This document shows positions 9,170 through 38,612 of a stretch of 64,000 nucleotides of DNA, piece after piece. The stretch is from Ruegeria sp. THAF33 (GTDB taxonomy: Bacteria; Pseudomonadota; Alphaproteobacteria; Rhodobacterales; Rhodobacteraceae). The notes beneath the pieces were generated by a model. The model was not told the origin of the DNA. It worked only from the letters and a program-made list of their open reading frames with translations, and made no database searches. How positions within the stretch are numbered: the stretch's first letter is position 1; the number at the start of each line of letters is the position of its first letter. The DNA is taken from positions 2,726,501-2,790,500 of the forward strand of contig NZ_CP045384.1 in assembly GCF_009363615.1 (NCBI RefSeq), given 5' to 3'. The translations under genes and the position numbers were made by a program.

Positions 9170-9172
9170 CCA

Positions 9173-9580: not shown

Positions 9581-9645
9581 GATGTGAGCCTCCAATTTTG
9601 CAGGCTAACTTTGAAACAGATATGAATTGCAGGCTTTGATTCAGG

Positions 9646-12404: not shown

Positions 12405-12542
12405 TGAAAACCCTTTCTAAATCGCGCCGCACCAATCTGGCGACGCGTCCAAACCCCGTGTCCAGGTCCGCCCCGAACGCGTCAGTCTGAATACCGAAAG
12501 AGAGTTAACCACGGCTCATATCACCGTGACGGTGGTGTTGCC

Positions 12543-12944: not shown

Positions 12945-12994
12945 GGGGCCACCTCCTGCAAAAAAAGAGTAGCCCCATACGGGATCAGGTCAAA

Positions 12995-16030: not shown

Positions 16031-16118
16031 TCGCGCGGGATGGATGAAACAAGGTGTTGAACCTGACCCGCTGCGCTCATATCGTGCGTCCTCGAACGAC
16101 CCCAATCAGGACCATCCC

Positions 16119-16541: not shown

Positions 16542-16560
16542 TCTTGGCAATCTGCGAGTT

Positions 16561-18039: not shown

Positions 18040-18105
18040 AGTTGGAATAAAATCCCACAGATCAAATGCGCGCAACCGCTCGCTGCGATTATGCGCCGCG
18101 CAAGG

Positions 18106-21168: not shown

Positions 21169-21189
21169 GCCCGCACTTTAGGTGCGGGC
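21169..21189 (+). terminator. GC-rich hairpin after ettA
   Basis: Perfect 8-bp stem GCCCGCAC / GTGCGGGC with loop TTTAG, followed by TTCTGAGTT. It ends 10 bp before the DUF3800 ATG, so it is either the distal ettA terminator or a structure that occludes DUF3800 translation, as that gene has no obvious ribosome site. Confidence 0.5.
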
Positions 21190-21199
21190 TTCTGAGTTA

Positions 21200-22006: not shown

Positions 22007-22579
22007 CCAACAAGCGTAGGATGGGGTTTTACCCCATCTTTCACCCAACGACCCTACTCGAACACCCGCACGATCTGTTCCCGCGCACCAAATCACCTCC
22101 AAAACCCGACCTTCCGCATGATGGGGTAAAACCCCATCCTACAGCTCTCCGAATGCGCCGTCCGTCACACCATCACTCCAACCCGGATCAACCCGACCCA
22201 CAATAATACCGCGATAGATTGACGATTGCGGTCACTCGGTAGTGTGCTTCTCCAGCCCACTCATGAATGCGGCCGCCAAGAAACAGCACCTCAAAACATA
22301 ATGTTGGACTGATTGCAGGGGCAGCACCTTTCCAGATCGGTTTACGCGAAACCTTCCGACCCGACACCAATAAACCCGATCTCCGAGCCTTCCGATCGGG
22401 ACTCACTGCACCGAAGTTCAAAGGAAACGGTTTCAATCCTTTCTGTCAGGTCCTGTTCCCGCTCTGTGAGTTCCAGCAACAGTTCGTGCATTTCTGGGTT
22501 TAACATCCCGGCCGCAAACCACGACGCGTTCGGCCAGGGTGCGGTTTTCACGGCCACAGAAGAAGTTTGACACTCTCTC
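22007..22579. other. Non-coding stretch upstream of the rplB promoter
   Basis: This stretch contains the inverted-repeat element at 22016-22142 and about 430 bp without a recognisable gene. Two minus-strand frames between 22188 and 22611 give peptides with a coiled-coil-like start (MLNPEMHELLLELTEREQDL) that run in different frames, so a decayed gene is possible. This is one of the two joints where the S10 operon was broken. Confidence 0.5.
22016..22142. repeat. 127-bp inverted-repeat element (BIME/MITE-like)
   Basis: A 23-bp sequence at 22016-22038 recurs exactly as its reverse complement at 22120-22142. Each copy is itself a hairpin, GATGGGGT with ACCCCATC around a T- or A-rich loop. Paired palindromic units in opposite orientation are the structure of REP/BIME elements or a short MITE. 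No coding capacity lies between the arms. Confidence 0.8.
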
Positions 22580-22608
22580 TTGTCACCCGGCCCCAACACT
22601 GCTAAACG
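22580..22608 (+). promoter_or_regulatory. Promoter of the rplB ribosomal operon
   Basis: TTGTCA (22580-22585), 17-base spacer, TAAACG (22603-22608). The same two hexamers with the same spacing occur upstream of rplK, which supports both. It leaves a leader of about 140 bases before rplB. Confidence 0.55.
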
Positions 22609-22621
22609 CACCCAATCTTGC

Positions 22622-22655
22622 GGCCTCGGATTCGTTCCGGGGCCTTAGATATTTT
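22622..22655 (+). promoter_or_regulatory. Candidate attenuator hairpin in the rplB leader
   Basis: GGCCTCGG (22622-22629) pairs with CCGGGGCC (22637-22644) through eight pairs including one G-T, and is followed by the T-rich TTAGATATTTT. Further GC-rich hairpins follow before the rplB start. The arrangement resembles a leader attenuator, but no regulatory ligand protein is evident. Confidence 0.35.
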
Positions 22656-22753
22656 GAACCGGGGACCTTCGGGGCCCTATACCCTTGGCACCTACGGGGG
22701 CCTCTCACATAGCGGGGAACCCCCTCGCACTTGCTAAACGGAAGACAGAAAGC

Positions 22754-23596
22754 ATGGCACTCAAGTCGTACAAGCCGACGACGCCGGGCCAGCGCGGGCT
22801 GGTGCTGATCGACCGTTCGGAGCTTTGGAAAGGACGTCCGGTCAAGTCTCTCACTGAGGGTTTGACCAAATCGGGCGGCCGGAACAACACCGGACGGATC
22901 ACTTCACGCCGCCGCGGCGGTGGCGCAAAGCGTCTCTACCGGATCGTTGACTTCAAACGGAACAAATTTGATGTCGCGGCAACCGTCGAGCGGATCGAAT
23001 ACGACCCGAACCGGACCGCATTCATCGCACTGGTAAAATACGAAGACGGCGAGCAGGCCTATATCCTGGCTCCGCAGCGTCTGGCTGTTGGTGACAAAGT
23101 CGTGGCATCTGCCAAGGCCGACATCAAGCCGGGCAACGCAATGCCGTTCTCGGGCATGCCCATTGGTACCATCGTCCACAATATCGAGATGAAGCCTGGC
23201 AAAGGCGGTCAGATCGCACGTGCGGCCGGTACTTACGCTCAGTTCGTTGGTCGCGATGGCGGCTACGCTCAGATCCGTCTGAGCTCGGGCGAGCTGCGCA
23301 TGGTCCGTCAGGAATGCATGGCCACCGTTGGTGCCGTGTCCAACCCCGACAACTCGAACCAGAACCTCGGTAAAGCCGGTCGTATGCGCCACAAAGGCGT
23401 TCGTCCGTCGGTTCGTGGTGTTGCAATGAACCCGATCGATCACCCGCACGGTGGTGGTGAAGGTCGTACCTCGGGTGGCCGTACACCGGTTACACCGTGG
23501 GGTAAGGACACCAAGGGTAAGCGTACCCGCAACAAGAACAAAGCGTCCCAGAAGCTGATCATCCGCTCGCGGCACGCCAAGAAGAAGGGACGTTAA
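22754..23596 (+). CDS. rplB: 50S ribosomal protein L2
   Basis: 280 residues, full length. L2 binds 23S rRNA near the peptidyl-transferase centre. The conserved C-terminal [14 protein letters not shown] loop and the [22 protein letters not shown]-terminal region are intact. Normally rplB directly follows rplW; here rplW lies at 34567-34863 on the opposite strand, so rplB is the first gene of its transcript, with its own promoter and leader. ATG 22754 is preferred over 22685. Followed 3 bp later by rpsS. Confidence 0.98.
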
Positions 23597-23599
23597 TCT

Positions 23600-23878
23600 A
23601 TGTCTCGCTCTGTTTGGAAGGGTCCTTTCGTCGATGCTTATGTGCTGAAAAAAGCCGAAGCAGCGCGCGAGTCGGGCCGCAACGAAGTCATCAAGATCTG
23701 GTCGCGTCGTTCCACCATTCTGCCCCAATTCGTGGGTCTGACCTTTGGTGTGTACAATGGCCAGAAGCATATCCCGGTAAACGTCACGGAAGACATGATT
23801 GGTCAGAAGTTCGGTGAATACTCGCCAACTCGTACCTACTATGGTCACGCCGCAGACAAAAAAGCGAAGCGGAAGTAA
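23600..23878 (+). CDS. rpsS: 30S ribosomal protein S19
   Basis: 92 residues. S19 forms a complex with S13 in the head of the 30S subunit near the A-site tRNA. The start [21 protein letters not shown] and the core [30 protein letters not shown] are canonical, as is the [14 protein letters not shown] end ([19 protein letters not shown]). Spacing is 3 bp to rplB and 3 bp to rplV, so it is tightly operonic and in the ancestral S10 order. Confidence 0.98.
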
Positions 23879-23881
23879 GTC

Positions 23882-24262
23882 ATGGGCAAGGAAAAGAACC
23901 CCCGCCGCGTGGCTGAAAACGAAGCAATGGCGAAAACTCGCATGCTTCGCACCAGCCCGCAGAAACTGAACCTGGTTGCGCAAATGATCCGCGGCAAGAA
24001 AGTCGAGAAGGCTCTGACCGACCTGACTTTCTCGAACAAGCGTGTCGCGCAGGACGTCAAGAAGTGCCTGCAGTCCGCAATCGCGAATGCCGAAAACAAC
24101 CACAACCTGGACGTTGACGAACTGATCGTCGCCGAAGCTTGGGTTGGCAAGAACCTGGTCATGAAGCGCGGTCGCCCGCGTGCCCGTGGCCGTTTCGGCA
24201 AGATCATGAAGCCGTTCTCGGAGATCACCATCAAGGTGCGTCAAGTTGAGGAGCAAGCCTAA
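23882..24262 (+). CDS. rplV: 50S ribosomal protein L22
   Basis: 126 residues. L22 lines the nascent-peptide exit tunnel; its beta-hairpin loop is the segment [23 protein letters not shown] near the C-terminus, with no macrolide-resistance-like deletion visible. The N-terminal extension ([14 protein letters not shown]) is typical of alphaproteobacteria. Its stop codon shares one base with the rpsC start, so the two are translationally coupled. Confidence 0.98.
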
Positions 24263-24969
24263 TGGGACATAAAGTCAATCCGATCGGCATGCGCCTGCAG
24301 GTCAACCGCACCTGGGACAGCCGCTGGTACGCTGACACCAAGGATTACGGTGATCTTCTGCTGGAAGACATCAAGATCCGTGAGTTCATTCAGAAAGAGT
24401 GCAAGCAGGCCGGTGTTGCACGTGTGATCATCGAACGTCCGCACAAGAAGTGCCGCGTAACGATCCACACCGCACGTCCGGGTGTCATCATCGGCAAGAA
24501 AGGTGCAGACATCGAAGTTCTGCGCAAAAAGCTTGCTGGTATGACCGACAGCGAACTGCACCTGAACATCGTCGAAGTGCGCAAGCCCGAGCTTGACGCG
24601 CAGCTGGTTGCCGAGTCGATCGCTCAGCAGCTGGAACGTCGTGTTTCGTTCCGTCGCGCAATGAAGCGCTCGGTTCAGAACGCCATGCGCATGGGCGCCC
24701 TGGGTATCCGGGTGAACGTCGCTGGCCGTCTGGGCGGCGCCGAAATCGCACGGACCGAATGGTATCGCGAAGGCCGCGTGCCTCTGCATACCCTGCGTGC
24801 CGACATCGATTACGCACATGCCGAAGCGATGACTCCTTACGGGATCATCGGGATCAAGGTCTGGATCTTCAAAGGTGAGATCATGGAGCACGATCCGCAG
24901 GCACGTGACCGTAAAGCACAGGAACTCCAGGATGGTCCGGCACCTCGCGGTGCAGGCGGCCGTCGCTAA
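24262..24969 (+). CDS. rpsC: 30S ribosomal protein S3
   Basis: 235 residues. S3 forms part of the mRNA entry channel and helicase site. It has the start [23 protein letters not shown], the KH domain with [20 protein letters not shown] (GxxG loop as GKKG), and the C-terminal [17 protein letters not shown]. It overlaps rplV by one base and precedes rplP by 12 bp with GGAGG between. Confidence 0.98.
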
Positions 24970-24981
24970 GGAGGATTTGAG

Positions 24982-25395
24982 ATGCTTCAACCAAAGCGTA
25001 CGAAATTCCGCAAGATGCACAAAGGCCGGATCAAGGGAGAAGCCAAGGGCGGCTCTGATCTGAACTTTGGCACCTACGGTCTGAAAGCCTTGCAGCCCGA
25101 GCGCGTCACCGCACGTCAGATCGAAGCTGCACGTCGTGCCATGACCCGTCACATGAAACGTCAGGGTCGTGTCTGGATCCGTATCTTCCCCGACACTCCG
25201 GTCACTGCAAAGCCGATCGAAGTTCGTATGGGTAAAGGTAAGGGTTCGGTGGACCGCTGGGTTTGCAAGGTCAAGCCCGGCCGCGTGATGTTCGAGATCG
25301 ACGGCGTCAATGACGACATCGCCCGCGAGGCCCTGCGCCTGGCCGCGATGAAGCTGCCGATCAAGACCCGCGTCGTGGTTCGCGAAGACTGGTAA
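24982..25395 (+). CDS. rplP: 50S ribosomal protein L16
   Basis: 137 residues. L16 helps position the aminoacyl-tRNA acceptor stem. The sequence begins [24 protein letters not shown] and carries the arginine site [26 protein letters not shown] and [17 protein letters not shown], all canonical. In the ancestral operon rpmC follows immediately; here a terminator comes 35 bp after the stop and rpmC is 1.7 kb away. Confidence 0.98.
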
Positions 25396-25429
25396 GCGAT
25401 CCGGGGTTTCCCCGTTCGTGACAAAATTG

Positions 25430-25465
25430 ACCCCCGTCGGGAAACCGGCGGGGGTTTATTATTTG
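25430..25465 (+). terminator. Terminator after rplP
   Basis: Ten-pair stem CCCCCGTCGG / CCGGCGGGGG (25431-25440, 25445-25454) with loop GAAA, then TTTATTATTT. It splits the S10 operon after rplP. Confidence 0.85.
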
Positions 25466-25564
25466 GGGGCGCTGCCCCCGCCGCGGCAAGCCGCGACTCC
25501 CCCGGGATATTTAAAGCCAGATGAAGCGGGGGATCCGGATTTCATCTGGCAAAAAATATCCCGG
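25466..25564. repeat. REP/BIME-like paired palindromes
   Basis: Arms 25502-25525 and 25541-25564 form a large, slightly imperfect inverted repeat (CCGGGATATTT...GCCAGATGAA with TTCATCTGGC...AATATCCCGG). They are preceded by nested hairpins GGGGGC-GCT-GCCCCC and CGCGGC-AA-GCCGCG. The GGGGGC..GCCCCCGCC..CCCCGGGATATTT style is one I associate with dispersed intergenic repeats in Rhodobacterales genomes. Confidence 0.75.
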
Positions 25565-25629
25565 AGCGCGAGGCAGAGCCTCGCAAAAGAGCCATCGCAA
25601 TCGCGATGAAGCTAGGTTAAGAGGGCGCT

Positions 25630-26250
25630 ATGGCACAGATTGAATCTCTCTTCGTAACCCGTCTTTATCGCGCAGCCCTGTCCGAGTTCGATCCCGCGAT
25701 CGATGCGGAAGAGTTGGAAGACTCGTGCCTTGTCATCGCCGAAGATGACGAGGCCGGGCAGCAATGGTGTGAGGAAAACGGCTATCCCGGCTACACCAGC
25801 TATGCCTCGCTGACCGATCTGCCCTGGCGCTTCCCGATCTTTGCCGATCTGGTGGAGGTACTGGATCAGCACGTGGCGGCCTTTGCCAAGGATCTGGAGT
25901 TCGATCTGGGCGAGGGCGCGTTGAAACTGGAAGACCTTTGGATCAACATCCTGCCCGAGGGTGGCATGCACTCCAGCCACCTGCACCCGCACAGCGTGAT
26001 CTCGGGCACGACCTATGTGGCGATGCCCGAGGGGGCGAGCGCGCTGAAACTGGAGGACCCCCGTTCAGGCCGCATGATGGCTGCGCCGACGCGTCTGAAA
26101 GGCGGGCGGCGCGATTTGCAGCCATTCATCTACATGAAACCGCAGGTGGGGGATGTCCTGCTTTGGGAAAGCTGGCTGCGCCACGAGGTCCCGATGAACA
26201 TGGCCGAGGAAGAGCGGATATCTGTCAGTTTTAACTATCGGTGGGACTGA
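25630..26250 (+). CDS. 2OG-Fe(II) oxygenase-like protein (TIGR02466 type)
   Basis: 206 residues. The sequence fits the TIGR02466 / 2OG-FeII_Oxy_5 group: FVTRLYRAAL at the start, then WINILPEGGMHSSHLHPHSVISGTTYVAMPEGASALKLEDPR, with His residues that could bind iron, and a C-terminal VGDVLLWESWLRHEVPMNMAEEERISVSFNYRW carrying the distal His and the Arg that would hold 2-oxoglutarate. The substrate is unknown. It lies inside the ribosomal block between rplP and rpmC, on the same strand, separated by a terminator and repeats. It is not a ribosomal gene, but a ribosome-hydroxylase role would be an attractive speculation. Confidence 0.8.
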   Translation: MAQIESLFVTRLYRAALSEFDPAIDAEELEDSCLVIAEDDEAGQQWCEENGYPGYTSYASLTDLPWRFPIFADLVEVLDQHVAAFAKDLEFDLGEGALKLEDLWINILPEGGMHSSHLHPHSVISGTTYVAMPEGASALKLEDPRSGRMMAAPTRLKGGRRDLQPFIYMKPQVGDVLLWESWLRHEVPMNMAEEERISVSFNYRWD

Positions 26251-26327
26251 ACGCTCCCACCGAATAACGGCATCTTGAATGCCGGAGAACACCGTTGGCA
26301 CTCCGCCCAGAATGAACGAAAGCCCTG

Positions 26328-26771
26328 TCAGGCGGCAGGTGAAGGCCAAGAAAATTCTGGACGGAACGCTTCATATACCGGTCGTCCGTCATCAGGCTTG
26401 GGGTACCCTTTGCTGTCATCGTAAAACGCGTGGTAAGTCGCTGCAGGAAACTTGCTGTCATCATACCCCATCACGTTGGGTACAGCCACGCGTATGCGTT
26501 TTTGCTTATCATCCAGCATCAGCGCGGCCCCGCACTCAGAACAGGTGCAAAGCTCTAAAGGGCCATCGGGATTGTTGGCGTTGAATGGTTGACGGTTCAT
26601 CTTGTCTTCGGGGTCTGCTGACAGGTCTGTGTAGTTAAAGAACGCAACATGGGTTGTGTGCTGTCCGGTCACGGACTTACAGACATCACAGTGGCATTCA
26701 TGGTTGTCTATCGGTTCTGCCGTCGCGACTATCTTGACGTGTTCACATCCTCCTGAATAAGGGCTGGTCAT
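26328..26771 (-). CDS. GFA-family (glutathione-dependent formaldehyde-activating-like) zinc protein
   Basis: 147 residues. GFA proteins use two zinc sites made by several cysteines. Here CHCDVC (with KSVTG after) and CTCSECGAALML are intact. The first motif, normally CxCG, reads GGCEHVKI, with His where the second Cys is expected, so a zinc ligand may differ. AGGAGGTAA stands just before ATG 26771; the frame upstream to 26924 is not protein-like. It is on the opposite strand to the ribosomal genes that flank it, between rplP and rpmC. Its substrate is unknown; few GFA proteins truly act on formaldehyde. Confidence 0.8.
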   Translation of the reverse strand: MTSPYSGGCEHVKIVATAEPIDNHECHCDVCKSVTGQHTTHVAFFNYTDLSADPEDKMNRQPFNANNPDGPLELCTCSECGAALMLDDKQKRIRVAVPNVMGYDDSKFPAATYHAFYDDSKGYPKPDDGRPVYEAFRPEFSWPSPAA

Positions 26772-26962
26772 TTTCTTACCTCCTCTGTGAACTTCAGGCT
26801 TTTGGGCCTTCTCTATTGGGCGCCGAACGCGGCACGTTGGCAATACAGACCTTGGCCTGAGTTTGGATGAGGAATACTTCGCGGAAGTTTCGTGATTGGT
26901 AACCCGTTCGGCGACCGAGAGCATCCAATTCCCTCGCCATCAAGAAGACGTCAAACTTTCCC

Positions 26963-26990
26963 TTGCCCCCCACTCCCTAAACCCTTATAC
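26963..26990 (+). promoter_or_regulatory. Putative promoter of the rpmC-rpmD operon
   Basis: TTGCCC (26963-26968), 16-base spacer, TTATAC (26985-26990), 120 bp before rpmC. A new promoter is expected here because rplP ends in a terminator and an antisense gene intervenes. Small hairpins follow in the leader. Confidence 0.35.
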
Positions 26991-27110
26991 GGCGGCATCC
27001 TGCGTGTCGCCCGGCGTTGTCGGGAGATTCGCATGTCTATCATTCATCCACCAGGTCCAAGGTGACCCGTGTACGGGGCCTTCTGGTGTTTTGAGCAAAG
27101 GAAAAAGGCG

Positions 27111-27317
27111 ATGAACGCCCAAGAACTGCGTGAAAAGACCCCGGACCAGCTCCGCGAGGAACTGGCCAACCTGAAGAAAGAAAGCTTTAACCTGCGCTTT
27201 CAACAGGCAACCGGTCAGCTGGAAAACACTGCCGGCATCAAAGCGGCCCGCCGCAATGCTGCCCGCGTCAAAACCATTCTGAACGAAAAGGCCGCTGCTG
27301 CGGCATCGGAGGAGTAA
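27111..27317 (+). CDS. rpmC: 50S ribosomal protein L29
   Basis: 68 residues, two helices ([56 protein letters not shown]), lying beside the tunnel exit where SRP and trigger factor dock. It is the first gene of the second plus-strand ribosomal unit, with an upstream leader of about 100 bases. ATG 27111 follows AAAGGAAAAAGG; an upstream in-frame start at 27069 is unlikely. rpsQ follows after 4 bp. Confidence 0.97.
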
Positions 27318-27321
27318 TCCC

Positions 27322-27552
27322 ATGCCTAAGCGTATCCTGTCCGGAGTAGTAACCAGCGACGCCAACGAGCAGACCGTGACTGTTTCGGTTGAACGCCGTT
27401 TCAAGCACCCGCTGCTGCACAAAACCGTTCGTAAGTCCAAGAAATACCGGGCTCATGACGAAAAGAACGCCTTCAAGGTCGGCGACACTGTACGCATCAT
27501 CGAATGCGCGCCGAAATCGAAGACGAAACGTTGGGAGGTTCTGGAGGCATAA
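27322..27552 (+). CDS. rpsQ: 30S ribosomal protein S17
   Basis: 76 residues, OB-fold primary 16S-binding protein. Canonical segments are [45 protein letters not shown] and [25 protein letters not shown]. It follows rpmC by 4 bp. The gap to rplN is 75 bp and contains a 7-bp hairpin (27554-27560 with 27582-27588) that lacks a T run, so read-through is expected. Confidence 0.97.
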
Positions 27553-27627
27553 GCCCCCAGACCTTTCCATTTGTCGAAACCCTGGGGGAATTAACAAGAC
27601 CAGCCCCCACAGGTCGGGAGAAACCAC

Positions 27628-27996
27628 ATGATCCAGATGCAGACCAATCTGGATGTCGCTGACAACTCCGGCGCTCGCCGAGTTCAGTGCATCAAGGTCC
27701 TGGGTGGTTCCAAGCGTAAATACGCCTCCGTCGGCGACATCATTGTCGTCTCGGTGAAGGAAGCCATCCCGCGCGGTCGCGTGAAGAAAGGTGACGTCCG
27801 CAAGGCCGTCGTCGTACGCACCGCCAAGGAAGTCCGTCGCGAAGACGGCACCGCGATCCGTTTCGATCGCAACGCCGCCGTCATCCTGAACAACAACAAC
27901 GAGCCGATCGGTACCCGTATCTTTGGCCCCGTTGTTCGTGAACTGCGCGGCAAGAACTTCATGAAAATCATCTCGCTGGCTCCGGAGGTGCTGTAA
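27628..27996 (+). CDS. rplN: 50S ribosomal protein L14
   Basis: 122 residues, beta-barrel protein at the subunit interface. It begins [37 protein letters not shown] and ends with the conserved [31 protein letters not shown]. It is spaced 2 bp from rplX. This gene starts the spc part of the ancestral superoperon. Confidence 0.98.
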
Positions 27997-27998
27997 TC

Positions 27999-28310
27999 AT
28001 GGCTGCTAAACTCCGCAAAGGCGACAAGGTCGTCGTGCTGGCCGGCAAGGACAAGGGCAAAGAGGGAACCATTTCCTCGGTTGACCCCAAAGCCGGAAAA
28101 GCTGTTGTTGATGGCATCAACATCGCCATCCGTCACACCCGCCAGTCGCAGAACTCGCAAGGTGGTCGTCTGCCTCAGGCAAACCCGATCGACCTGTCGA
28201 ACCTGGCACTGCTGGACAAGAACGGCAAAGCGACCCGCGTTGGCTTCCGCATGGAAGGTGACAAGAAGGTCCGCTTCGCCAAGACCACAGGGGACGTGAT
28301 CGATGCTTGA
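27999..28310 (+). CDS. rplX: 50S ribosomal protein L24
   Basis: 103 residues with an N-terminal KOW motif ([25 protein letters not shown]) that initiates 50S assembly on 23S rRNA. The 3' end overlaps rplE by 8 bases, which implies translational coupling. Length and sequence are normal. Confidence 0.98.
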
Positions 28311-28863
28311 TAACGCAACCTACACCCCGCGTCTGAAAACTCAGTACGTTGAAACCATCCGTGCCGCTCTGAAAGAAGAGTTCGGTTACAAGAACGACAT
28401 GCAGCTGCCCAAGCTGGAGAAGATCGTTCTGAACATCGGTTGTGGTGCCGAGGCCGTCAAAGACTCGAAGAAAGCGAAAGCTGCGGTCGAGGATCTGACT
28501 GCGATTGCCGGTCAAAAGGCCGTTGCAACCAAGGCAAAGAAATCGATCGCGGGCTTCCGCGTCCGTGAAGACATGCCGCTGGGCGCGAAAGTGACCCTGC
28601 GTGGTGACCGGATGTACGAATTCTTGGATCGTCTGATCACCATCGCGCTGCCGCGCGTGCGTGACTTCCGCGGTGTAAAGCCTTCTTTCGATGGTCAGGG
28701 CAACTTTGCCATGGGCATGAAAGAGCACATCGTTTTCCCGGAAATCGATTTCGACAAGGTCGACGAGGTCTGGGGCATGGATATCGTAATTGCCACCACA
28801 GCGAAAACCGACGCTGAAGCAAAGGCACTGTTGAAAGCGTTCAACATGCCGTTCAACGCGTAA
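28303..28863 (+). CDS. rplE: 50S ribosomal protein L5
   Basis: 186 residues. L5 binds 5S rRNA in the central protuberance. Landmarks: [82 protein letters not shown] and the C-terminal [22 protein letters not shown]. It overlaps rplX and lies 19 bp before rpsN. Confidence 0.98.
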
Positions 28864-28882
28864 GCGCCGGGAGGATTGAGAC

Positions 28883-29188
28883 ATGGCTAAAAAAGCAATG
28901 ATCGAACGCGAAAAGAAGCGCGAACGCCTGGTGGCCAAATATGCCGCAAAGCGTGCCGAGCTGAAAGAAATCGCGAATGACGAAAGCAAGCCGATGGAAG
29001 AGCGCTTCAAAGCGCGTCTGAAACTGGCGAAGCTGCCGCGCAACAGCTCGGCCACTCGTCTGCACAACCGCTGTCAGCTGACAGGTCGTCCCCACGCTTA
29101 CTACCGTAAGCTGAAGGTCAGCCGTATCGCGCTGCGCGAGCTGGGTTCTGCTGGTCAGATCCCCGGCATGGTGAAATCGAGCTGGTAA
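28883..29188 (+). CDS. rpsN: 30S ribosomal protein S14 (zinc-free form)
   Basis: 101 residues, the long C-minus form without the CxxC zinc motif, as in most proteobacteria. It begins [27 protein letters not shown] and ends [51 protein letters not shown]. It sits in the head of the 30S subunit. GGGAGGA precedes the start. Confidence 0.98.
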
Positions 29189-29201
29189 GGGAGACATAGA
29201 T

Positions 29202-29594
29202 ATGAATGATCCTATCGGCGATATGCTCACCCGTATCCGCAACGCGCAAATGCGCGGCAAGTCCACCGTTTCCACCCCGGCTTCCAAGCTGCGCGGTTGG
29301 GTTCTGGACGTGCTGGCGGACGAAGGCTACATCCGTGGCTATGAAAAAACGACCGGTGAAAACGGTCATCCGGCCATCGAAATCAGCCTGAAGTACTACG
29401 AAGGCACCCCTGTCATTCGCGAACTGAAGCGGGTCTCGAAGCCCGGCCGTCGCGTATACATGGGCGTCAATGACATCCCGCAGGTCCGTCAGGGTCTGGG
29501 TGTGTCGATTGTCAGCACTCCGAAAGGTGTGATGTCGGACGCAAACGCTCGCTCCAACAATGTTGGCGGCGAAGTGCTCTGCACCGTCTTCTAA
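29202..29594 (+). CDS. rpsH: 30S ribosomal protein S8
   Basis: 130 residues. S8 nucleates the 30S central domain and in E. coli represses spc-operon translation. It begins [29 protein letters not shown] and ends [31 protein letters not shown], all canonical. No obvious S8-site mimic was identified around rplE, so autoregulation is only presumed. It ends 11 bp before rplF. Confidence 0.98.
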
Positions 29595-29605
29595 GGAGGT
29601 CTGCA

Positions 29606-30139
29606 ATGTCTCGTATTGGTAAAAAACCGGTCGAGCTGCCCAGCGGCGTTACCGCCACTGTGTCGGGTCAGACCATCGAAGTGAAAGGTCCGAAGGGCAC
29701 CCGCAGCTTTACCGCCACCGACGACGTAACGCTGTCGGTTGAAGACAACGTGGTCAAGATCGACCCCCGCGGCATGTCCAAACGTGCTCGCCAGCAATGG
29801 GGCATGAGCCGCACCATGGTTGCCAACCTGGTAACCGGTGTGACGACTGGCTTCAAAAAAGAGCTGGAGATCCAGGGTGTTGGTTACCGGGCTCAGATGC
29901 AGGGCAACACCCTGAAGCTGAACCTGGGCTACAGCCACGATGTTGATTTCACTGCTCCGGAAGGTGTCACCATCACCGCCCCGAAGCAGACCGAGATCGT
30001 TGTGGAAGGTATCGACCAGCAGCTGGTGGGCGAAACCGCGGCCAAAATCCGCGAATGGCGCCGCCCCGAGCCTTACAAAGGCAAAGGCATCCGCTACAAG
30101 GGCGAGTTCATCTTCCGCAAGGAAGGCAAGAAGAAGTAA
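29606..30139 (+). CDS. rplF: 50S ribosomal protein L6
   Basis: 177 residues in two similar domains near the sarcin-ricin loop and factor-binding site. It has [31 protein letters not shown] at the start and the C-terminal [33 protein letters not shown] precedes its ATG. Spacing to rplR is 11 bp. Confidence 0.98.
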
Positions 30140-30150
30140 GGACGAACACA

Positions 30151-30510
30151 ATGGCAAACAGCAAAAGAACCCTGTTTCTGAAGCGCCGCCTGCGCGTTCG
30201 GAACAAACTTCGCAAGGTCAACGCGGGTCGTCCGCGTCTGTCCGTACACCGTTCGAACAAGAACATCTCTGTTCAGTTGATAGACGACGTACGTGGCGTG
30301 ACCCTGGCCTCGGCCTCGACCCTGGAAAAGGATCTGGGCGTTGTTGGCAAAAACAACATCGATGCGGCGACCAAAGTCGGCGCGGCCATTGCAGAGCGTG
30401 CCAAGAAGGCAGGCGTCGAAGAGGCCTATTTCGATCGTGGTGGCTTCCTGTTCCACGGCAAGGTGAAGGCTCTGGCCGACGCTGCGCGTGAAGGTGGTCT
30501 GAAGATCTAA
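30151..30510 (+). CDS. rplR: 50S ribosomal protein L18
   Basis: 119 residues, 5S rRNA-binding protein that partners L5. Canonical segments: [39 protein letters not shown] and the C-terminal [38 protein letters not shown] 30151 is chosen; the longer frame overlaps rplF. The following 116-bp gap before rpsE is unusually long for this pair. Confidence 0.98.
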
Positions 30511-30626
30511 GACCTGCGGGCGGGTTTCGATCCGCCCCGATGATCCGGGGGCCTCGGCACTAGTCGGGGCTCACTTGGATTGAACAAACGGCGCCGAGAG
30601 CGCCTCTAGAGAAAAGGGATGCCAAG

Positions 30627-31196
30627 ATGGCAGAACGTGAAAACCGTCGGGGCCGTGGCCGCGACCGTGACGAAGCACCGGAATTTGCAGATCGCCTGGT
30701 TGCGATCAACCGTGTGTCGAAAACCGTAAAAGGTGGTAAGCGCTTTGGCTTCGCCGCTCTGGTGGTTGTCGGCGATCAGAAAGGCCGCGTCGGCTTTGGT
30801 AAAGGTAAAGCGAAAGAAGTACCTGAAGCCATCCGTAAGGCGACCGAACAAGCCAAGCGTCAGATGATCCGCGTGCAACTGCGCGAAGGTCGTACCCTGC
30901 ACCACGATATCGAAGGCCGTCACGGCGCTGGTAAAGTGGTTATGCGTACCGCACCTGAAGGTACCGGTATCATCGCCGGTGGTCCGATGCGTGCCGTGTT
31001 CGAAATGCTGGGCGTCAAGGACGTTGTGTCCAAGTCGCTGGGCTCGCAGAACCCGTACAACATGATCCGCGCCACCATCAACGGCCTGCAAAAAGAGCAG
31101 AGCCCGCGTTCGGTTGCCGCACGTCGTGGCAAAAAGGTTGCCGACATCCTGCCCAAGCGGGACGAAGCACCGGCTGCTGCTGAAGCAGAAGCATAA
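30627..31196 (+). CDS. rpsE: 30S ribosomal protein S5
   Basis: 189 residues. S5 acts in decoding accuracy and the mRNA entry channel. It shows the dsRNA-binding-like N-domain ([53 protein letters not shown]) and the C-domain with [26 protein letters not shown] short Ala-Glu-rich tail ends it. Separated from rplR by 116 bp with GC-rich hairpin potential; rpmD follows after 12 bp. Confidence 0.98.
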
Positions 31197-31208
31197 GGAG
31201 AGCGACCC

Positions 31209-31397
31209 ATGGCAAAAACCATCGTCGTCAAGCAGATCGGTTCCCCGATCCGCCGCCCCGCCGAACAGCGCGCAACTCTGATCGGTCTGGGCCTGAACAA
31301 GATGCACAAAACCCGTGAACTGGAAGACACTCCTTCGGTCCGCGGCATGATCCGCAAGATCCCGCATCTGGTAGAGATCGTCGAAGAGCGCGGCTAA
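31209..31397 (+). CDS. rpmD: 50S ribosomal protein L30
   Basis: 62 residues. The canonical start is [46 protein letters not shown]. In most proteobacteria rplO, secY, adk, rpsM, rpsK, rpoA and rplQ follow. Here a strong terminator comes 25 bp after the stop and none of these genes is in the window, so the spc operon is cut at this point too. Confidence 0.98.
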
Positions 31398-31422
31398 TCG
31401 CTAAATCTTCGCAGAGTTCGAA

Positions 31423-31453
31423 ACGCCCCTGATATTTTTCAGGGGCGTTTTTT
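31423..31453 (+). terminator. Strong terminator after rpmD
   Basis: Perfect 10-bp stem ACGCCCCTGA / TCAGGGGCGT with a 6-base loop, followed by six T residues. It ends the rpmC-rpmD transcript. Confidence 0.92.
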
Positions 31454-31514
31454 CTTGCGTTTAACTGCGTCTGACGTATCGTTTTGATCCATTTTGATTA
31501 AAGAGTGAGAAAAG

Positions 31515-31898
31515 ATGAAACTGTTCCTATCCGCGCTTTGCGCGACGGCCATTGGTGTCTCAGCGCACGCAGCCTGCCCTAACAAGGCTCCAAAACTTTC
31601 GAAAAGCTATTTCTCAGACGGCGACCAGAAAGTGAATGCAGCCTGGCTCCAAAACAACCTTGCGGGACGCAAAGTCGTTTACACTGGCAAAGACACAGAA
31701 ACATATTTTTCCGACGGAACCTATTCCTACAAAAGGGATGGCCAAACATGGAAAGCAAACTCATACAAATTCTATGACAACGGGATGCGTTGCATTGGAT
31801 ACCAAAACCCCCGGTTTGATCTTTACGTCGTGAACAACGGCAAACTGATTCTGGTTAATGAACAAAAAGAGCGATACGAGGGGAAGATTAGGAAATAG
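31515..31898 (+). CDS. Secreted hypothetical protein, AT-rich
   Basis: 127 residues with a signal peptide (MKLFLSALCATAIGVSAHA, cleaved before ACPNKAP). The mature protein has two cysteines (ACPN and MRCIGY), Tyr/Lys-rich strands (AGRKVVYTGKDTETYFSDGTYSYKRDGQTWKANSYKFYDNGMRC), and a basic end. It resembles small periplasmic proteins with a lipocalin-like or beta-sandwich fold, but I recognise no family. Composition is more AT-rich than the ribosomal genes beside it, suggesting later arrival in the region where rplO would normally be found. Confidence 0.65.
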   Translation: MKLFLSALCATAIGVSAHAACPNKAPKLSKSYFSDGDQKVNAAWLQNNLAGRKVVYTGKDTETYFSDGTYSYKRDGQTWKANSYKFYDNGMRCIGYQNPRFDLYVVNNGKLILVNEQKERYEGKIRK

Positions 31899-32207
31899 TC
31901 GGTTTTTAGGGCATTTCGTACAGGTTTATCGCAAGGTGTTAGCACTGCCACACGGCCTGCGTTCAATAGGAGAAGCGCCGTTACAGCAGTTTCTGAGTGC
32001 TTCTGACGCAAGTACATAATATTCCGAATGTCTTGCGCGATCCGTAATGCGTTGGGATCAACCTTTGTCATACCGAAAACGCATAACGGCTAGACCGAAA
32101 CCTATATTGTTAGCGATAACCATCAGCCCTATCTCAGCCTTGTCCAAACAAGGAACACAAAAGGTGACGTCAGGGAATTCGCCCTGATTTGAGAAAGGAA
32201 CACAGAA
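31899..32207. other. Non-coding stretch upstream of the DUF1127 gene
   Basis: No convincing gene. An open minus-strand frame at 31823-32071 starts plausibly (MTKVDPNALRIAQDIRNIMY) but then overlaps the secreted protein gene antisense and loses protein-like composition. A TCAGGG / CCCTGA hairpin lies near 32167, in the presumed DUF1127 leader. Confidence 0.4.
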
Positions 32208-32420
32208 ATGACAACCGCAACACTGACAAATACCGGCTTCAACTTCGGCACCCGGATCATGGACATGATCGAACGGATCAAAACCGCACGCAAACGGGCC
32301 GCTGAATATCAGCGCACATACCGCGAACTGCAGAGCCTGACCAACCGCGAACTGGATGACATCGGCATCCGCCGCTGCGACATCGCAGATATTGCGCACA
32401 AACATGTTTACTGCTCTTGA
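32208..32420 (+). CDS. DUF1127 small Arg-rich protein
   Basis: 70 residues. The C-terminal half has the DUF1127 pattern: RTYRELQSLTNRELDDIGIRRCDIADIAHKHV, with the helix-turn NRELDDIGIxRxDI motif. Members in alphaproteobacteria affect RNA turnover, phosphate and carbon physiology, and some work with sRNAs. GAAAGGA stands before the ATG and a textbook terminator follows, so it is a stand-alone gene likely to be strongly expressed. Confidence 0.9.
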   Translation: MTTATLTNTGFNFGTRIMDMIERIKTARKRAAEYQRTYRELQSLTNRELDDIGIRRCDIADIAHKHVYCS

Positions 32421-32443
32421 TCGCGGATAATCCGCAGAAATAC

Positions 32444-32471
32444 AAAAAGGCGCCGAATGGCGCCTTTTTTT
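32444..32471 (+). terminator. Terminator after the DUF1127 gene
   Basis: Stem AAAAAGGCGCC / GGCGCCTTTTT with loop GAAT, ending in a run of seven T. The A and T tracts on both sides make it potentially bidirectional. Confidence 0.92.
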
Positions 32472-32635
32472 GTATCACGCGTTGGCTCACAGCACGACCA
32501 GTAAACGCGTAACAGCAGGATAGGCCCACTGAAGATCACAATGCCGCTGTACGGAGCTAAAATCCGGCTCTACGGCGCTTTCCAACCGTGGGCTCCCGCA
32601 ACATACGTTTCCCTGACCCCTGGCCTTCTGACGCC

Positions 32636-33316
32636 CTACCCCAAAGACCGCCTGCGGCAGAGTGGTTCAGACTCCACTGCAATCCGCTGTTTGAGCTTGA
32701 TATGGCCAAGAACCTCTCGAAACGCACGGTGCTTGGGTTTGCCTTCCAGATAATCCGCCAGTTTTAGCAGGTTGATTGGGTGCTTCTCAACAAGCACTTC
32801 GATCCGCTGCACGGCGTCGTCCAAAATATAATGATCGATGAACTGGCAAGCCACCTGCGTCGGGGTCAGCAGGCAATAGTCCTGAGCGCGCTTGTCTGTG
32901 TAGCGCGTAATGTCAAAGGGCGACGCGCCGAGGGCGTGGAACTTTGGAATATGTACACGCATGTCGGCTTTCACATGCTCCAGCACCGTACCGGAAATCT
33001 GTCGAAACCCCAGCGGACCAAGCTTGGTGACAACATGCTTACGCATCGCCGGAGAGATCATGTCCACATCCGCCCGATCGTATTTCAGATCATCGAATAC
33101 CGACAAGAGCCCCAGCTTTTCATCTGCTATCTGGAAATACGGCTCACCGTTAAACGCGCGCATCTTCTCCAGCACCTGCTCACGTTCAGCTGATGGATCA
33201 GAGACGAAAGCGACCTCGTCGGTTTGATCCGCCGAGGTCGCGAAACCACCTAGCAAGCGTCGTAGCAGGGTGTGCTGCTTTTTTCCATGCTGCGGTGTGT
33301 TCTTTGAGTCAGCCAT
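32636..33316 (-). CDS. Conserved-looking hypothetical protein, function unknown
   Basis: 226 residues from ATG 33316 (238 from an earlier start at 33352). It is soluble and charged, with a basic N-terminus (GKKQHTLLRRLLGGF) and alternating helices: EREQVLEKMRAFNGEPYFQIADEKLGLLSVFDDLKYDRADVDMISPAMRKHVVTKLGPLGF, then VHIPKFHALGASPFDITRYTDKRAQDYCLLTPTQVACQFIDHYILDDAVQRIEVLVEKHPINLLKLADYL. No signal peptide, membrane segment or known motif is seen. It follows yceI in the same direction by 38 bp and may share its transcript. I do not recognise it. Confidence 0.65.
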   Translation of the reverse strand: MADSKNTPQHGKKQHTLLRRLLGGFATSADQTDEVAFVSDPSAEREQVLEKMRAFNGEPYFQIADEKLGLLSVFDDLKYDRADVDMISPAMRKHVVTKLGPLGFRQISGTVLEHVKADMRVHIPKFHALGASPFDITRYTDKRAQDYCLLTPTQVACQFIDHYILDDAVQRIEVLVEKHPINLLKLADYLEGKPKHRAFREVLGHIKLKQRIAVESEPLCRRRSLG

Positions 33317-33354
33317 AGCATTCAATGTAGCGCCAGCGGGCTGACTTACCATTC

Positions 33355-33936
33355 TTACCCGTCAGCCTTCATCTCGGTGTCGATGAGGATGGTGATCGGC
33401 CCGGTCGAGAATGGTCCGACGCCAAACTCCGTATGGTCAATCTCAGCTTCTGCCGAGAACGCCACCCAGTCGCCTTGATAGTATTCAATGGCACCGCCCA
33501 GCGGATGCGGGCCTTGGTGAGTCAGCGTGGCTTTCAGAGTTACGGGTTTGGTTACACCATGAATGGTGAGGTCGCCGGTCACATCCGCCGTGGTGTCGCC
33601 CGTCCGTTCAATTCCCGTGCTGACGAAAGTGATTTCCGGATAGGTTTCGACCTCGAGAAAATCCGCCGACTTAAGGTGATCGTCCAAAGGCCCAAACCCC
33701 GAGGACAAGCTGTTAGTGTCGATCGTCACGTTCAGTGTCGATGCCTCTACATCATCAGCGTTCAGATCCAGCACACCTTCGACTTTGGTGAATTCGCCAT
33801 GCTGGGTGGACACGCCTGCATGGCTCCAGCTGAAGCGGACTTCTGTATGCCCCTGGTCAGTCTTGTAGGTCTGCGCAAAGGCAGGTGCCACGGCAACGGT
33901 CAGGGCGGCGGCAGCGATCATAGAGTAAAAGCTCAT
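33355..33936 (-). CDS. YceI-family periplasmic lipid-binding-type protein
   Basis: 193 residues with a signal peptide ending AVAPAFAQ. The mature part is a YceI lipocalin-like barrel: YKTDQGHTEVRFSWSHAGVSTQHGEFTKVEGVLDLNADDVEASTLNVTIDTNSL, HLKSADFLEVETYPEITFVST, DVTGDLTIHGVTKPVTLKATL. The family binds polyisoprenoid or amphiphilic ligands in the periplasm and is often stress-induced. It is divergent from a MarR regulator with a palindrome between them, so MarR control is likely. Confidence 0.92.
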   Translation of the reverse strand: MSFYSMIAAAALTVAVAPAFAQTYKTDQGHTEVRFSWSHAGVSTQHGEFTKVEGVLDLNADDVEASTLNVTIDTNSLSSGFGPLDDHLKSADFLEVETYPEITFVSTGIERTGDTTADVTGDLTIHGVTKPVTLKATLTHQGPHPLGGAIEYYQGDWVAFSAEAEIDHTEFGVGPFSTGPITILIDTEMKADG

Positions 33937-33969
33937 GGCTAAGTTCCTTTCATCCGGTAGGGGCTGGAT

Positions 33970-33991
33970 ATTAGTTGAATTTTCATCTAAT
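33970..33991. promoter_or_regulatory. Operator-like palindrome between yceI and marR
   Basis: ATTAGTTGAA (33970-33979) and TTCATCTAAT (33982-33991) form an inverted repeat with nine of ten pairs and a 2-base centre. Its size and AT-rich form suit a MarR dimer controlling both divergent genes. Confidence 0.5.
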
Positions 33992-34037
33992 TGAACACGC
34001 TAGAAACCGCAATCTGAATCTAGGAGAACACGAAGTT

Positions 34038-34475
34038 GTGAAGAGTGATCTGCCAACATCACTGGAAACCGACATCTGGGTTGCAATGAACCGGACGACA
34101 CGGCTCATCCAGTTTGAAATCAGTGCCGCCCTGAAAGACGCTGGCCTGCCGCCTTTGAAATGGTACGATATCCTTTGGTCCCTCGAGCGGCACGGCGGCC
34201 AACTGCGTCCCTACGAGCTGGCTCAGGACACCATATTCGAGCAATCGAACCTGTCCCATTTGAGCAGGCGCCTGGTTGCAGAAGGGCTGATCACATATGT
34301 GTCCTTTGACGGTGACCGGCGGGGTAAAGTCCTGAAGATCACCGACAAGGGGAAAGAGCTGCGAAAACGTATGTGGGAAATCTACGGCCCCTTGCTGCAC
34401 GAAAAGATGCGCGCCTTTGGCAAGTCGGATGGCTGGCAGGCCTTCATCGAAACCGCGCGCAAGCAAGCTGAATAG
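34038..34475 (+). CDS. MarR-family transcriptional regulator
   Basis: 145 residues from GTG 34038, which follows AGGAG; a TTG at 33975 would run through the operator and is less likely. The winged helix is clear: LPPLKWYDILWSLERHGGQLRPYELAQDTIFEQSNLSHLSRRLVAEGLITYVSFDGDRRGKVLKITDKGKEL, where the DRRGKVLKIT segment is the wing. It is divergent from yceI across a palindrome, so it probably represses itself and yceI in response to a small ligand. Confidence 0.88.
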   Translation: MKSDLPTSLETDIWVAMNRTTRLIQFEISAALKDAGLPPLKWYDILWSLERHGGQLRPYELAQDTIFEQSNLSHLSRRLVAEGLITYVSFDGDRRGKVLKITDKGKELRKRMWEIYGPLLHEKMRAFGKSDGWQAFIETARKQAE

Positions 34476-34513
34476 GAAGCCGTCCGGGGCAACGAGCAAA
34501 CGACGTGTGCCAA

Positions 34514-34541
34514 ACAAAAAACCCCCGCTTGCGCGGGGGTT
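34514..34541 (-). terminator. Terminator after rplW
   Basis: Minus-strand stem AACCCCCGC / GCGGGGGTT with a 4-base loop, followed by TTTTTTG. It ends the rpsJ-rplC-rplD-rplW transcript at the point where rplB would normally follow. Confidence 0.92.
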
Positions 34542-34566
34542 CTGATTGTCCAAGTGACGGGTCCGA

Positions 34567-34863
34567 TCAGAGACCGGTGGCCACGTCGATGGTGTTCCCC
34601 TCTTCCAGGGTCACATAGGCCTTCTTGACGTCTTTCCGCTTGCCCAGCTGGCCGCGGAACCGCTTGACCTTGCCTTTGGTCACGGTGGTGTTCACCGCTT
34701 TGACCTTCACGCCAAACAGCGCCTCAACGGCCTCTTTGATCTGCGGCTTGTTGCTGTCGATCGCCACTTCAAAGACAACCGCGCCGTTTTCGGACGCCAT
34801 GGTCGACTTTTCAGTGATGATCGGCTTGCGGATCACGTCGTAGTGTTCTGCCTTCGCGCTCAT
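34567..34863 (-). CDS. rplW: 50S ribosomal protein L23
   Basis: 98 residues. L23 sits at the tunnel exit and docks trigger factor and SRP. It has the start [54 protein letters not shown] and [25 protein letters not shown]. Its ATG overlaps the rplD stop (ATGA). It is the last gene before a strong terminator; the normal next gene, rplB, is 12 kb away on the opposite strand. Confidence 0.98.
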
Positions 34864-35477
34864 TTCAGTCGAGCCTCCAGTGCTTCGACAGCCGCTTTGG
34901 TGAGCACCAGGGTGTCACGCTTGAGGATGTCATAAACGTTTGCACCCATCGACGGCAGGATATCCAGACCTTCGATGTTGCGCGACGCCTTCAGGAAACC
35001 TTCGTTCACGGTCGCACCGTCGATGACCAGAGCGCGTTTCCAGCCCAGGTTTGCAACCTGTTTGGCCAGAGCGGCGGTCTTGCCTTCGGCTTCGGCGCTC
35101 TCGATCACAACCAGTTCACCTGCTTTGGCTTTTGCCGACAGAGCGTGGCGCAGGCCAAGCTTGCGGAACTTCTTCGGCAGGTCGTGGCCGTGCGAACGAG
35201 GGGTCGGGCCCTTGTAGATGCCACCCTTGCGGAAGATCGGCGCGTTGCGGTCACCATGGCGTGCGCCACCGGTGCCCTTCTGGCGATAGATCTTCTTGGT
35301 CGAGTAGCTGGTTTCCGAGCGGGTCTTGACCTTGTGGGTGCCGGCCTGCGCGTTGTTGCGCTGCCAACGGACCACACGGTGCAGGATGTCTGCACGCGGC
35401 TCGAGACCGAACAGATCGGCGTTCAGCTCGATGTCGCCGGCTTTGCCGCCGTCCAGTTTGATTACATCAAGTTTCAT
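34860..35477 (-). CDS. rplD: 50S ribosomal protein L4
   Basis: 205 residues. L4 lines the exit tunnel with a loop ([30 protein letters not shown]) that is intact, with no macrolide-type changes evident. In E. coli L4 also represses the S10 operon by attenuation and translational block. It overlaps rplC and rplW by four bases each, so translation is coupled through all three. Confidence 0.98.
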
Positions 35478-36199
35478 GCTTCACCACCTTCCGCGGGAGC
35501 TTCTTCCGCAGGTGCATCAGATGCAGCCGATTTCACAGCAGCCGGGAAAGGCAGGCCTTCCGGTGCTTTCTTCTTCACGGCGTCCTTGACGGTGACCCAG
35601 CCCGATTTCGGTCCGGGAACGGCGCCTTTGATGAAGACCAGACCACGCTCGGCGTCGGTTTTGACGACTTCCAGGTTCTGGGTCGTTACACGGGCAGCAC
35701 CCATGTGACCGGCCATCTTCTTGCCTTTGAACACCTTGCCCGGGTCCTGACACTGACCGGTCGAACCGTGCGAACGGTGGCTGATCGAAACACCGTGCGA
35801 GGCGCGCAGACCACCGAAGTTGTGGCGCTTCATCGCACCGGCAAAGCCTTTACCGATCGAGGTGCCCGAAACGTCAACCTTCTGACCTTCCAGGAAGTGT
35901 TCTGCCGAAATCTCGGCACCCACTTCGATCAGGCCATCTTCGGAGACGCGGAACTCGGCCAGCTTACGCTTGGGCTCGACCTTGGCAGCGGCATAGTGAC
36001 CGCGCATGGCTTTCGAGGTGCGTTTTGCCTTGGCAGCACCGGCGCCCAGCTGAACGGCAGTGTAGCCATCTTTGTCAGCGGTCCGCTGTGCAACGACCTG
36101 CAGGTTGTCCAAGTGAAGAACGGTCACAGGGATCTGCTTGCCGTCTTCCATGAACAGGCGGGTCATGCCAACTTTTTTTGCGATAATACCAGAGCGCAT
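35474..36199 (-). CDS. rplC: 50S ribosomal protein L3
   Basis: 241 residues. It has the N-terminal [28 protein letters not shown] and the central methylation-loop region [43 protein letters not shown]-terminal Pro-Ala-Glu-rich extension ([17 protein letters not shown]) makes it longer than the E. coli protein, as in related alphaproteobacteria. ATG 36199 has GGAGG eight bases upstream; an ATG at 36205 is too close to that site. Confidence 0.97.
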
Positions 36200-36214
36200 T
36201 CTCATACCCTCCGA

Positions 36215-36529
36215 TTACGACTGCAACTTGATCTCGACGTCCACACCAGCAGCGAGGTCGAGCTTCATCAGCGCGTCAACGGTCTGGGGGGTCGGATCAA
36301 CGATGTCGAGAAGACGCTTGTGCGTGCGGATCTCGAACTGGTCGCGGGATTTCTTGTCAACGTGAGGGCCACGGAGAACCGTGAACTTCTCGATCTTGTT
36401 CGGCAGCGGGATCGGTCCGCGCACGTTCGCGCCGGTCCGCTTGGCAGTGTTGACGATCTCTTGCGTGCTGGCATCCAGAACGCGATAGTCAAATGCCTTC
36501 AGCCGAATACGGATGTTTTGGCTTTGCAT
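36215..36529 (-). CDS. rpsJ: 30S ribosomal protein S10 (NusE)
   Basis: 104 residues. S10 is both a 30S head protein and NusE, the antitermination partner of NusB. Canonical: [69 protein letters not shown]. It is the first gene of the S10-operon front fragment, with a promoter and hairpin leader upstream. It normally follows tuf, but here an amidohydrolase gene stands between. Confidence 0.98.
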
Positions 36530-38546: not shown

Positions 38547-38612
38547 CTTATGACCTCTTTCGAATTGCAATGCTTCAATACAGAAAAGGGTAGCATCTCG
38601 TTGTGCGTTTAC

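Follow-up and report, generated by a model that had tools for sequence, protein, structure and literature searches.

Organisation of the locus

The window analysed here is a stretch of 64,000 nucleotides (nt) from Ruegeria sp. THAF33 (NZ_CP045384.1, positions 2,726,501 to 2,790,500), in which the S10-spc cluster of ribosomal protein genes is broken into pieces. The order of its genes is a standard example of gene-order conservation. By rplW, the closest named relatives of the genome belong mostly to Ruegeria. In the window, rpsJ-rplC-rplD-rplW lay on the minus strand, and rplB-rpsS-rplV-rpsC-rplP and the spc genes lay on the plus strand 11 kb away; family scans confirmed the genes and strands given in an earlier note on this DNA, which had put the distance at 12 kb. 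The plus-strand block from rplB to rpmD comprised 16 ribosomal genes with their order kept. The earlier note had the strands and genes of the blocks right but missed a second gap, between rplP and rpmC, with a TIGR02466 gene inside. Comparison with related genomes showed that the rear part is truly inverted, that the inversion is common to related species, and that it is later than, and separate from, the split between rplW and rplB.

Separation of rplW and rplB in related genomes

L23 (rplW) and L2 (rplB) were placed by Pfam in whole genomes of the genus Ruegeria, the family Rhodobacteraceae and the class Alphaproteobacteria, and gaps were taken from Pfam match to Pfam match. The Pfam background counts used the genomes with places among the matches listed, 149 of 171 and 150 of 175 matching genomes. 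Second L23 entries of G160, G279, G342, G415 and G228 and the second L2 entry of G415 were left out, and two L23 pieces of G441 were merged into one. Both genes were present in 53 of the 54 genomes of the genus sample; the window genome is designated G000.

Outside the family, the two genes were on one strand and adjacent (387–470 nt between matches) in all 139 class genomes. In the family, 231 genomes had both genes, of which 211 had them on one strand of one contig (75 with a gap below 700 nt, 135 at 0.7–20 kb, and one at 72 kb), 4 on opposite strands (G000 and G043 among them), and 16 on separate contigs, in some cases perhaps at draft ends. The corresponding numbers for the 229 genomes of the other family genera were 211, 2 and 16. 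In the genus, rplW and rplB were adjacent in none of the 53 genomes: 39 were collinear at 1.5–6.6 kb and one at 147 kb, 10 had the genes on opposite strands, and 3 on different contigs. Measured from gene to gene in 36 collinear loci, the distance was 1.1–6.2 kb. Much of the family thus has a loose joint. Since the 39 collinear genus genomes are already split, with other DNA between the two genes, the inversion is later than the split.

The comparison of gene order across related genomes, of the kind that the earlier note had proposed for Rhodobacterales, bore out the inversion but not its role as the origin of the split. The possibility that the arrangement is ancestral to the whole order, also raised there, largely holds for the split and does not hold for the inversion. 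In L203 (G351, 1245–18251), the rplW-rplB gap was 17 kb long and, in our reading of the translations, held an adhesin-like open reading frame (ORF) of 2862 amino acids (aa) and ORFs resembling a type I export system.

Table 1. Coordinates of features in the window
Feature	Position	Strand	Evidence or remark
rpsJ (S10)	36215..36529	-	NCBIfam NF001861 1.1e-50; first gene of front half
rplC (L3)	35474..36205	-	TIGR03625 8.1e-86
rplD (L4)	34860..35477	-	TIGR03953 1.7e-63
rplW (L23)	34567..34863	-	NF004360 1.5e-47; last gene of front half
Intrinsic terminator behind rplW	34518..34543	-	Terminator scan; CCCCCGC stem in relatives
MarR-like cargo gene, rplW side	33975..34475	+	Pfam MarR_2 4e-7
YceI-like cargo gene	33355..33936	-	Pfam YceI 1e-42
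Cargo gene orf32	32636..33352	-	No family match; homologues in rplW-rplB interval, 8/36 collinear loci
Left inversion breakpoint	32469..32632		Between DUF1127 terminator and orf32; G236 alignment over 32081-33240, 82%
Small DUF1127 gene	32208..32420	+	PF06568 1.1e-13; end of inverted block
rpmC-rpsQ-rplN-rplX-rplE-rpsN-rpsH-rplF-rplR-rpsE-rpmD	27111..31397	+	Rear part of inverted block; rpmC start 27111 chosen here
TIGR02466 / 2OG-Fe(II) oxygenase-like gene	25630..26250	+	TIGR02466 6.7e-87, PF13759 1.8e-34; between rplP and rpmC
Terminator-like site behind rplP	25429..25456	+	Terminator scan
rplP	24982..25395	+	Family scan
rplB	22754..23596	+	ATG at 22754
rplB-rpsS-rplV-rpsC-rplP	22754..25395	+	Family scans; front of inverted block
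L2 leader RNA (RF03142)	22686..22751	+	60.8 bits vs gathering 37.8, E 3.7e-12; directly 5' of rplB
Promoter-like block TTGTCA-17-TAAACG	22580..22608	+	Genus conservation begins about here
Flank of later junction	22011..22579		Among 7 other inverted genomes matches only G208 (from 22141) and G232

Elsewhere in the window, an amidohydrolase gene (36705–38570, minus strand) between tuf and rpsJ was a further gene inside the str-S10 run. A DUF3800 gene (21182–22006) lay between ABCF and the rplB upstream region, within sequence unmatched in G208 and G232, and beside it was a perfect 23-nt inverted repeat (22016–22038 / 22120–22142) in a stretch also present in G232. A Rhodo-rpoB RNA (RF03074) was found at 54985–55077 on the minus strand (76.8 bits).

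Copies of the rplW 3' end

Gene maps contained extra rplW matches between rplW and rplB, all of them of the 3' end. A search of the 53 genus genomes with a profile of the last 103 nt (E<=1e-6) gave 45 partial copies in 28 genomes, in arrays of up to four. Forty were on the rplW strand and four were on the opposite strand, all in the inverted genomes G230, G235 and G247; the remaining one was beside the moved rplB block of G224. Self-comparison showed that most repeats ran from about nt 190–225 of rplW through the stop codon to about 50–70 nt past it, at the terminator end, and that several ended about 5–20 nt past the stop with the terminator unmatched. When 41 copies were viewed by eye, a cargo frame ended within about 20 nt before the copy in many of them, and in others (G203, G207, G243) it did not.

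As a control, the 5', middle and 3' parts of 21 genes were searched, and 17 genes had no extra copy. Extra copies were found for rplP (one middle, one 3'), TIGR02466 (one 5', one middle, five 3') and rplR (one 3'). The true extra copies of rplW were of the 3' part: three 5' matches (G204, G221, G225) were the real gene, masked in the maps, and its three middle matches were assumed to be so too. The copied TIGR02466 3' ends were downstream in L156, L160, L165, L185 and L201, joined in L156 by an rplP 3' end.

A further 100 loci, 80 of them named and 20 belonging to other genera, were searched at E<=0.01. A copy was present in 15, nine of them outside named Ruegeria and KLH11; a match in L040 was the true rplW and was not counted. 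Young copies were seen in Shimia gijangensis (L086, 225 nt, 94%), G342 (104 nt, 88%) and G279 (239 nt, 82%). Counted back from the end of the stop codon, the copies started at about 134 nt in L086, at about 183 nt in L205 and at about 72–105 nt in most genus copies. This variation between insertions speaks against a single fixed crossover. In L205 (G279, 2050–6908), 5 kb of cargo behind rplW, metabolic-looking in our reading of the translations, was bounded by the 239-nt copy.

Behind rplW, G208 carried the rplB leader with the first 21 nt or so of rplB, and this piece was fused to a decayed 3' copy of rplW, with DUF1127 following. This structure would be the scar expected from an rplW-rplB fragment that ended in rplB and was joined to the recipient rplW end.

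One-sided homologous insertion appears to be the likeliest cause of the copies. We lean towards a mechanism in which an incoming fragment would recombine homologously in rplW, its other end being joined illegitimately to the recipient rplW 3' end, with the old end displaced downstream. Transformation and gene transfer agents are candidate vehicles for such DNA. Integrases insert at transfer RNA 3' ends, and a recombinase might likewise insert cassettes at the rplW 3' end, each bringing a new gene end and terminator. Such an enzyme would fit the shortness of the units, the many copies that start near nt 192–225, and direct repeats that derive from the 3' end of a single gene and point the same way, but the differing copy starts in L086, L205 and most genus copies, the lack of an integrase, transposase or recombinase match among the 32 scanned genus cargo proteins, and the copying of TIGR02466 and rplP ends make this rather unlikely. 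Local tandem duplication of the rplW end with its neighbour, if the duplicated neighbour was later replaced or decayed, would account for direct repeats in tandem order. It is improbable, since neighbouring units carry unrelated genes, and the fusion of an rplB start to an rplW end in G208 is unexpected from simple duplication of rplW and one cargo gene.

Cargo genes between rplW and rplB

The cargo of the 36 collinear loci included a fatty-acid desaturase in 19, orf32 in 8, a MarR-like gene in 7, YceI in 7 and an aldose epimerase in 4. MarR and YceI matches occurred together in 13 of 57 genus loci, the window locus included. A Pfam scan covered 32 of 39 cargo representatives of at least 150 aa, and 11 of those scanned were without a family. 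None of these 32 genus proteins matched an integrase, transposase or recombinase, the other 7 of the 39 representatives, cargo below 150 aa and the long inserts of other genera being unscanned.

PADLOC, applied to 10 cargo proteins, reported AbiU over nearly the full model (8e-186) and TIR-TM (1.7e-61), with partial matches to a kinase, a type IV restriction enzyme and a capP-like protease; the rest were weak or absent. Some of the cargo resembles defence genes, PADLOC names being no proof of defence.

Probable expression signals of the two halves

The minus-strand terminator after rplW, placed by the earlier note at 34514–34541, was confirmed at 34543–34518. A CCCCCGC stem was present 3' of rplW in 32 of 49 genus tails. 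Terminator-like sites numbered 21 overall versus 17.1 in shuffles, so that the terminator scan by itself is weak proof.

When the 230 nt 5' of rplB were aligned for 52 genus loci, conservation set in at a TTGTCA/TAGACA-like hexamer and was lacking ahead of it; the block consisted of this hexamer, 17 nt, and a TAAACG-like hexamer. We take it to be the putative rplB promoter. A consensus promoter scan of the window found no rplB promoter. Of the earlier claim that both pieces carry their own promoter-like sites and terminators, own signals for each are likely, but the rplB promoter was absent from the consensus scan.

Directly 5' of rplB was the RF03142 leader. In searches run with stricter filters both inside and outside the family, 147 of 198 family genomes had the leader (113 above the cut-off), as against none of 140 class genomes outside the family. 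It exceeded the cut-off in 49 of 57 gapped and 13 of 14 split family genomes (62 of 71 together), in 23 of 52 adjacent ones, and in none of 15 with a gap below 490. From its name, lineage and genes, RF03142 is presumably the L2-Alphaproteobacteria ribosomal leader motif of Eckert and Weinberg 2020 (PMC7247131), where L2 is given as the best-guess ligand, and L2 binding and repression are likewise predictions.

The inversion

The inversion was found in 8 of the 53 Ruegeria genomes. In G043, G230, G235, G236 and G247, rplB-rpmD was inverted in place between rplW and rplO-secY; in the other three, secY was away, at about 1.04 Mb in G000 (if the contig is circular), 34 kb in G208 and 1.1 Mb in G232. 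G227 (rplB-rplP only), G223 and G224 represented separate rearrangements. In G223 (L192), the rplB block lay upstream of rpsJ and read away from it, and the region before rplB was present behind rplW as an inverted copy (183 columns, 79%).

At the left junction, the window matched G236 in one piece over 1.16 kb (82%) and G235 in two. This alignment, which runs across DUF1127 and orf32, put the end of the block near 32.47–32.63 kb, instead of at the 34.5 kb proposed earlier. The DUF1127 gene was found 3' of rpmD in many genus loci. Because rplO-secY has moved away and the left breakpoint is near 32.5 kb, the single inversion of 22.3–34.5 kb that the earlier note had proposed does not restore the ancestral order.

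A desaturase|rplO junction was common to G235, G236, G230 and G247, and was also present in G000, G208 and G232, there away from rplB. G043 had both sides of this junction with the desaturase gone. In the window genome the junction was at C1 ~329.4–330.9 kb, about 1 Mb away. A second break had therefore separated rplB from desaturase-rplO-secY in the window genome, G208 and G232. The rplB-side joint of the window, formerly taken as an inversion end, is this later break and not the original junction, and 22011–22579 is the flank of the later junction that replaced desaturase/rplO.

Trees of the flank genes c0, c1, c6 and c8 (33–34 genomes) each grouped all eight inverted genomes with support of 0.95–1.0. 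The c4 tree grouped the five inverted genomes that have the gene, and rplO+secY grouped the eight with support of 0.82. Pieces with internal stops were trimmed or dropped for the flank-gene trees. The inversion looks like one old event. Across the genus loci (L146–L202), ribosomal-gene and flank-gene trees conflicted, possibly from recombination within the ribosomal cluster.

Inverted repeats were considered as a cause of the inversion and rejected: inverted matches between the joints were at most 13 nt in the five genomes inverted in place, and G235 had none, in a test that began behind rplW and so did not take in the rplW-end copies that lie inverted in G235, G230 and G247.

That the inversion itself split the operon, as the earlier note inferred, is extremely unlikely: one inversion would put rplW beside rplB in the window, but all 39 collinear genus relatives are already split, and the inverted block brought cargo along. 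Recurrent inversion at repeats, by which the block would flip back and forth, was first suggested by the ribosomal-gene tree, which scatters the inverted genomes, and was dropped on the flank-gene trees. The inverted rplW-end copies of G235, G230 and G247 (87–111 nt, 76–79%), now beyond the far side of the block, could be counted in its favour, but we take them to be former direct repeats, as they would have been before the inversion. With other inverted matches across the joints so short, the flank genes giving one clade and the junctions common to the carriers, we hold flipping to be highly unlikely. The probability of an assembly artefact is negligible. Many draft contigs do end near rpsJ, but the window lies inside a 3.46-Mb contig, and its right junction is common to G208 and G232 and its left to G235 and G236, all separate genomes, so that no assembly error is involved.

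Direction of replication

Across 20 samples of the chromosome contig, guanine-cytosine skew was positive up to about 1.45 Mb, apart from one value near zero. It was negative between 1.62 and 3.26 Mb, and at 3.44 Mb it was positive again. This suggested that forks should pass the window toward lower coordinates, which would make the front half co-oriented and the 16-gene rear block head-on. In the other inverted genomes only local skew was available; it agreed in the flank loci of G236, G232, G235 and G208, and at the joint loci it was negative in G235, G247 and G043 and near zero in G230.

Probable stepwise break-up of the cluster

We consider it likely that the S10-spc cluster came apart in four steps. 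In this family, rplB would first have acquired a promoter of its own together with the L2 leader RNA, with rplW ending in a terminator; the distribution of these signals is as observed, and their order in time is presumed. With them in place, the rplW|rplB joint would no longer have needed to stay intact. The joint filled with cargo, and in about half of the Ruegeria genomes partial rplW 3'-end copies, often with terminator, lie among the cargo genes. In one Ruegeria clade, the block of desaturase cargo, rplB...rpmD and DUF1127 inverted in place between rplW and rplO, and the second break parted rplB from desaturase-rplO-secY in the window genome and two relatives. The two halves may now work independently of each other, the rear one under its own promoter, plus L2 feedback if the leader works as predicted.

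Several observations weigh against this explanation. A leader above the cut-off is already present in the 23 adjacent genomes, and since the family genomes are related, the cases behind the association of leader and gap are not independent, and statistics overstate their independence. The ribosomal-gene trees do not recover the inverted clade, which may reflect recombination or weak signal; the flank trees comprise 33–35 of the 53 genomes. The window has no detectable rplW 3' copy, nor have 25 of the 53 genus genomes at E<=1e-6. As for the proposed one-sided insertion, of the copies in G228 it is the one closer to rplW that has decayed further, indicating that insertion was not always at rplW itself, and the clustering of copy left ends at about nt 190–225 could mean a preferred site.

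More tentatively, the rplW end might be a recombinase-free landing pad, and the gap, once rplB had acquired its promoter and leader, a cassette array fed by rplW-rplB fragments of other genomes; it would sample single genes, anti-phage defence included, and loosen the operon so that a 16-gene head-on inversion was kept.

These results suggest that independent regulation of rplB released the constraint on operon order. The states found in the family run from adjacent through leader present, cargo filled and inverted to dispersed, and in this series one can probe what keeps the operon intact. Eight related species in which a large ribosomal block is flipped are a natural test of the cost of head-on ribosomal genes, and the arrays are a place to look for small defence genes. 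In the open-access literature we found nothing on an S10-operon inversion in Ruegeria, rplW insertion in Rhodobacteraceae, an rplW island in Roseobacter or the rplW and rplB genes of the alphaproteobacterial S10 operon; titles on split ribosomal protein operons in Rhodobacterales concern other matters.

Comparison with known systems

The standard S10-spc cluster has the same genes in the same order within each piece. The window differs from it in having cuts at rplW|rplB, rplP|rpmC and rpmD|rplO and in the inversion of the pieces in the middle.

Integron arrays consist of short cassette units joined by IntI at attC recombination sites. The rplW-rplB arrays are similar in their short units, many in the same direction and several with a shared repeat after them, but here the repeat is a gene end, often with a terminator. 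No integrase match was found among the 32 cargo proteins, but an IntI gene could be located elsewhere, and no search for attC sites was made.

The RNA before rplB in the window is like the L2-Alphaproteobacteria leader, and the genes that follow (rplB, rpsS, rplV, rpsC) agree. The difference is that PMC7247131, in its treatment of this motif, draws no link to operon break-up.

Kirchberger et al. 2017 (PMC5361080) described arrays of orphan immunity genes at the type VI secretion system loci of Vibrio cholerae, for which the authors suggested a process akin to homology-facilitated illegitimate recombination; their account of the arrays reports no integrase evidence. In Vibrio, and probably in the rplW-rplB arrays too, incoming modules insert beside a conserved anchor and push older genes or 3' ends downstream. 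The Vibrio anchor consists of secretion-system sequence, and effector and immunity genes make up the cargo, whereas in the rplW-rplB arrays a ribosomal gene end serves as the anchor for mixed cargo.

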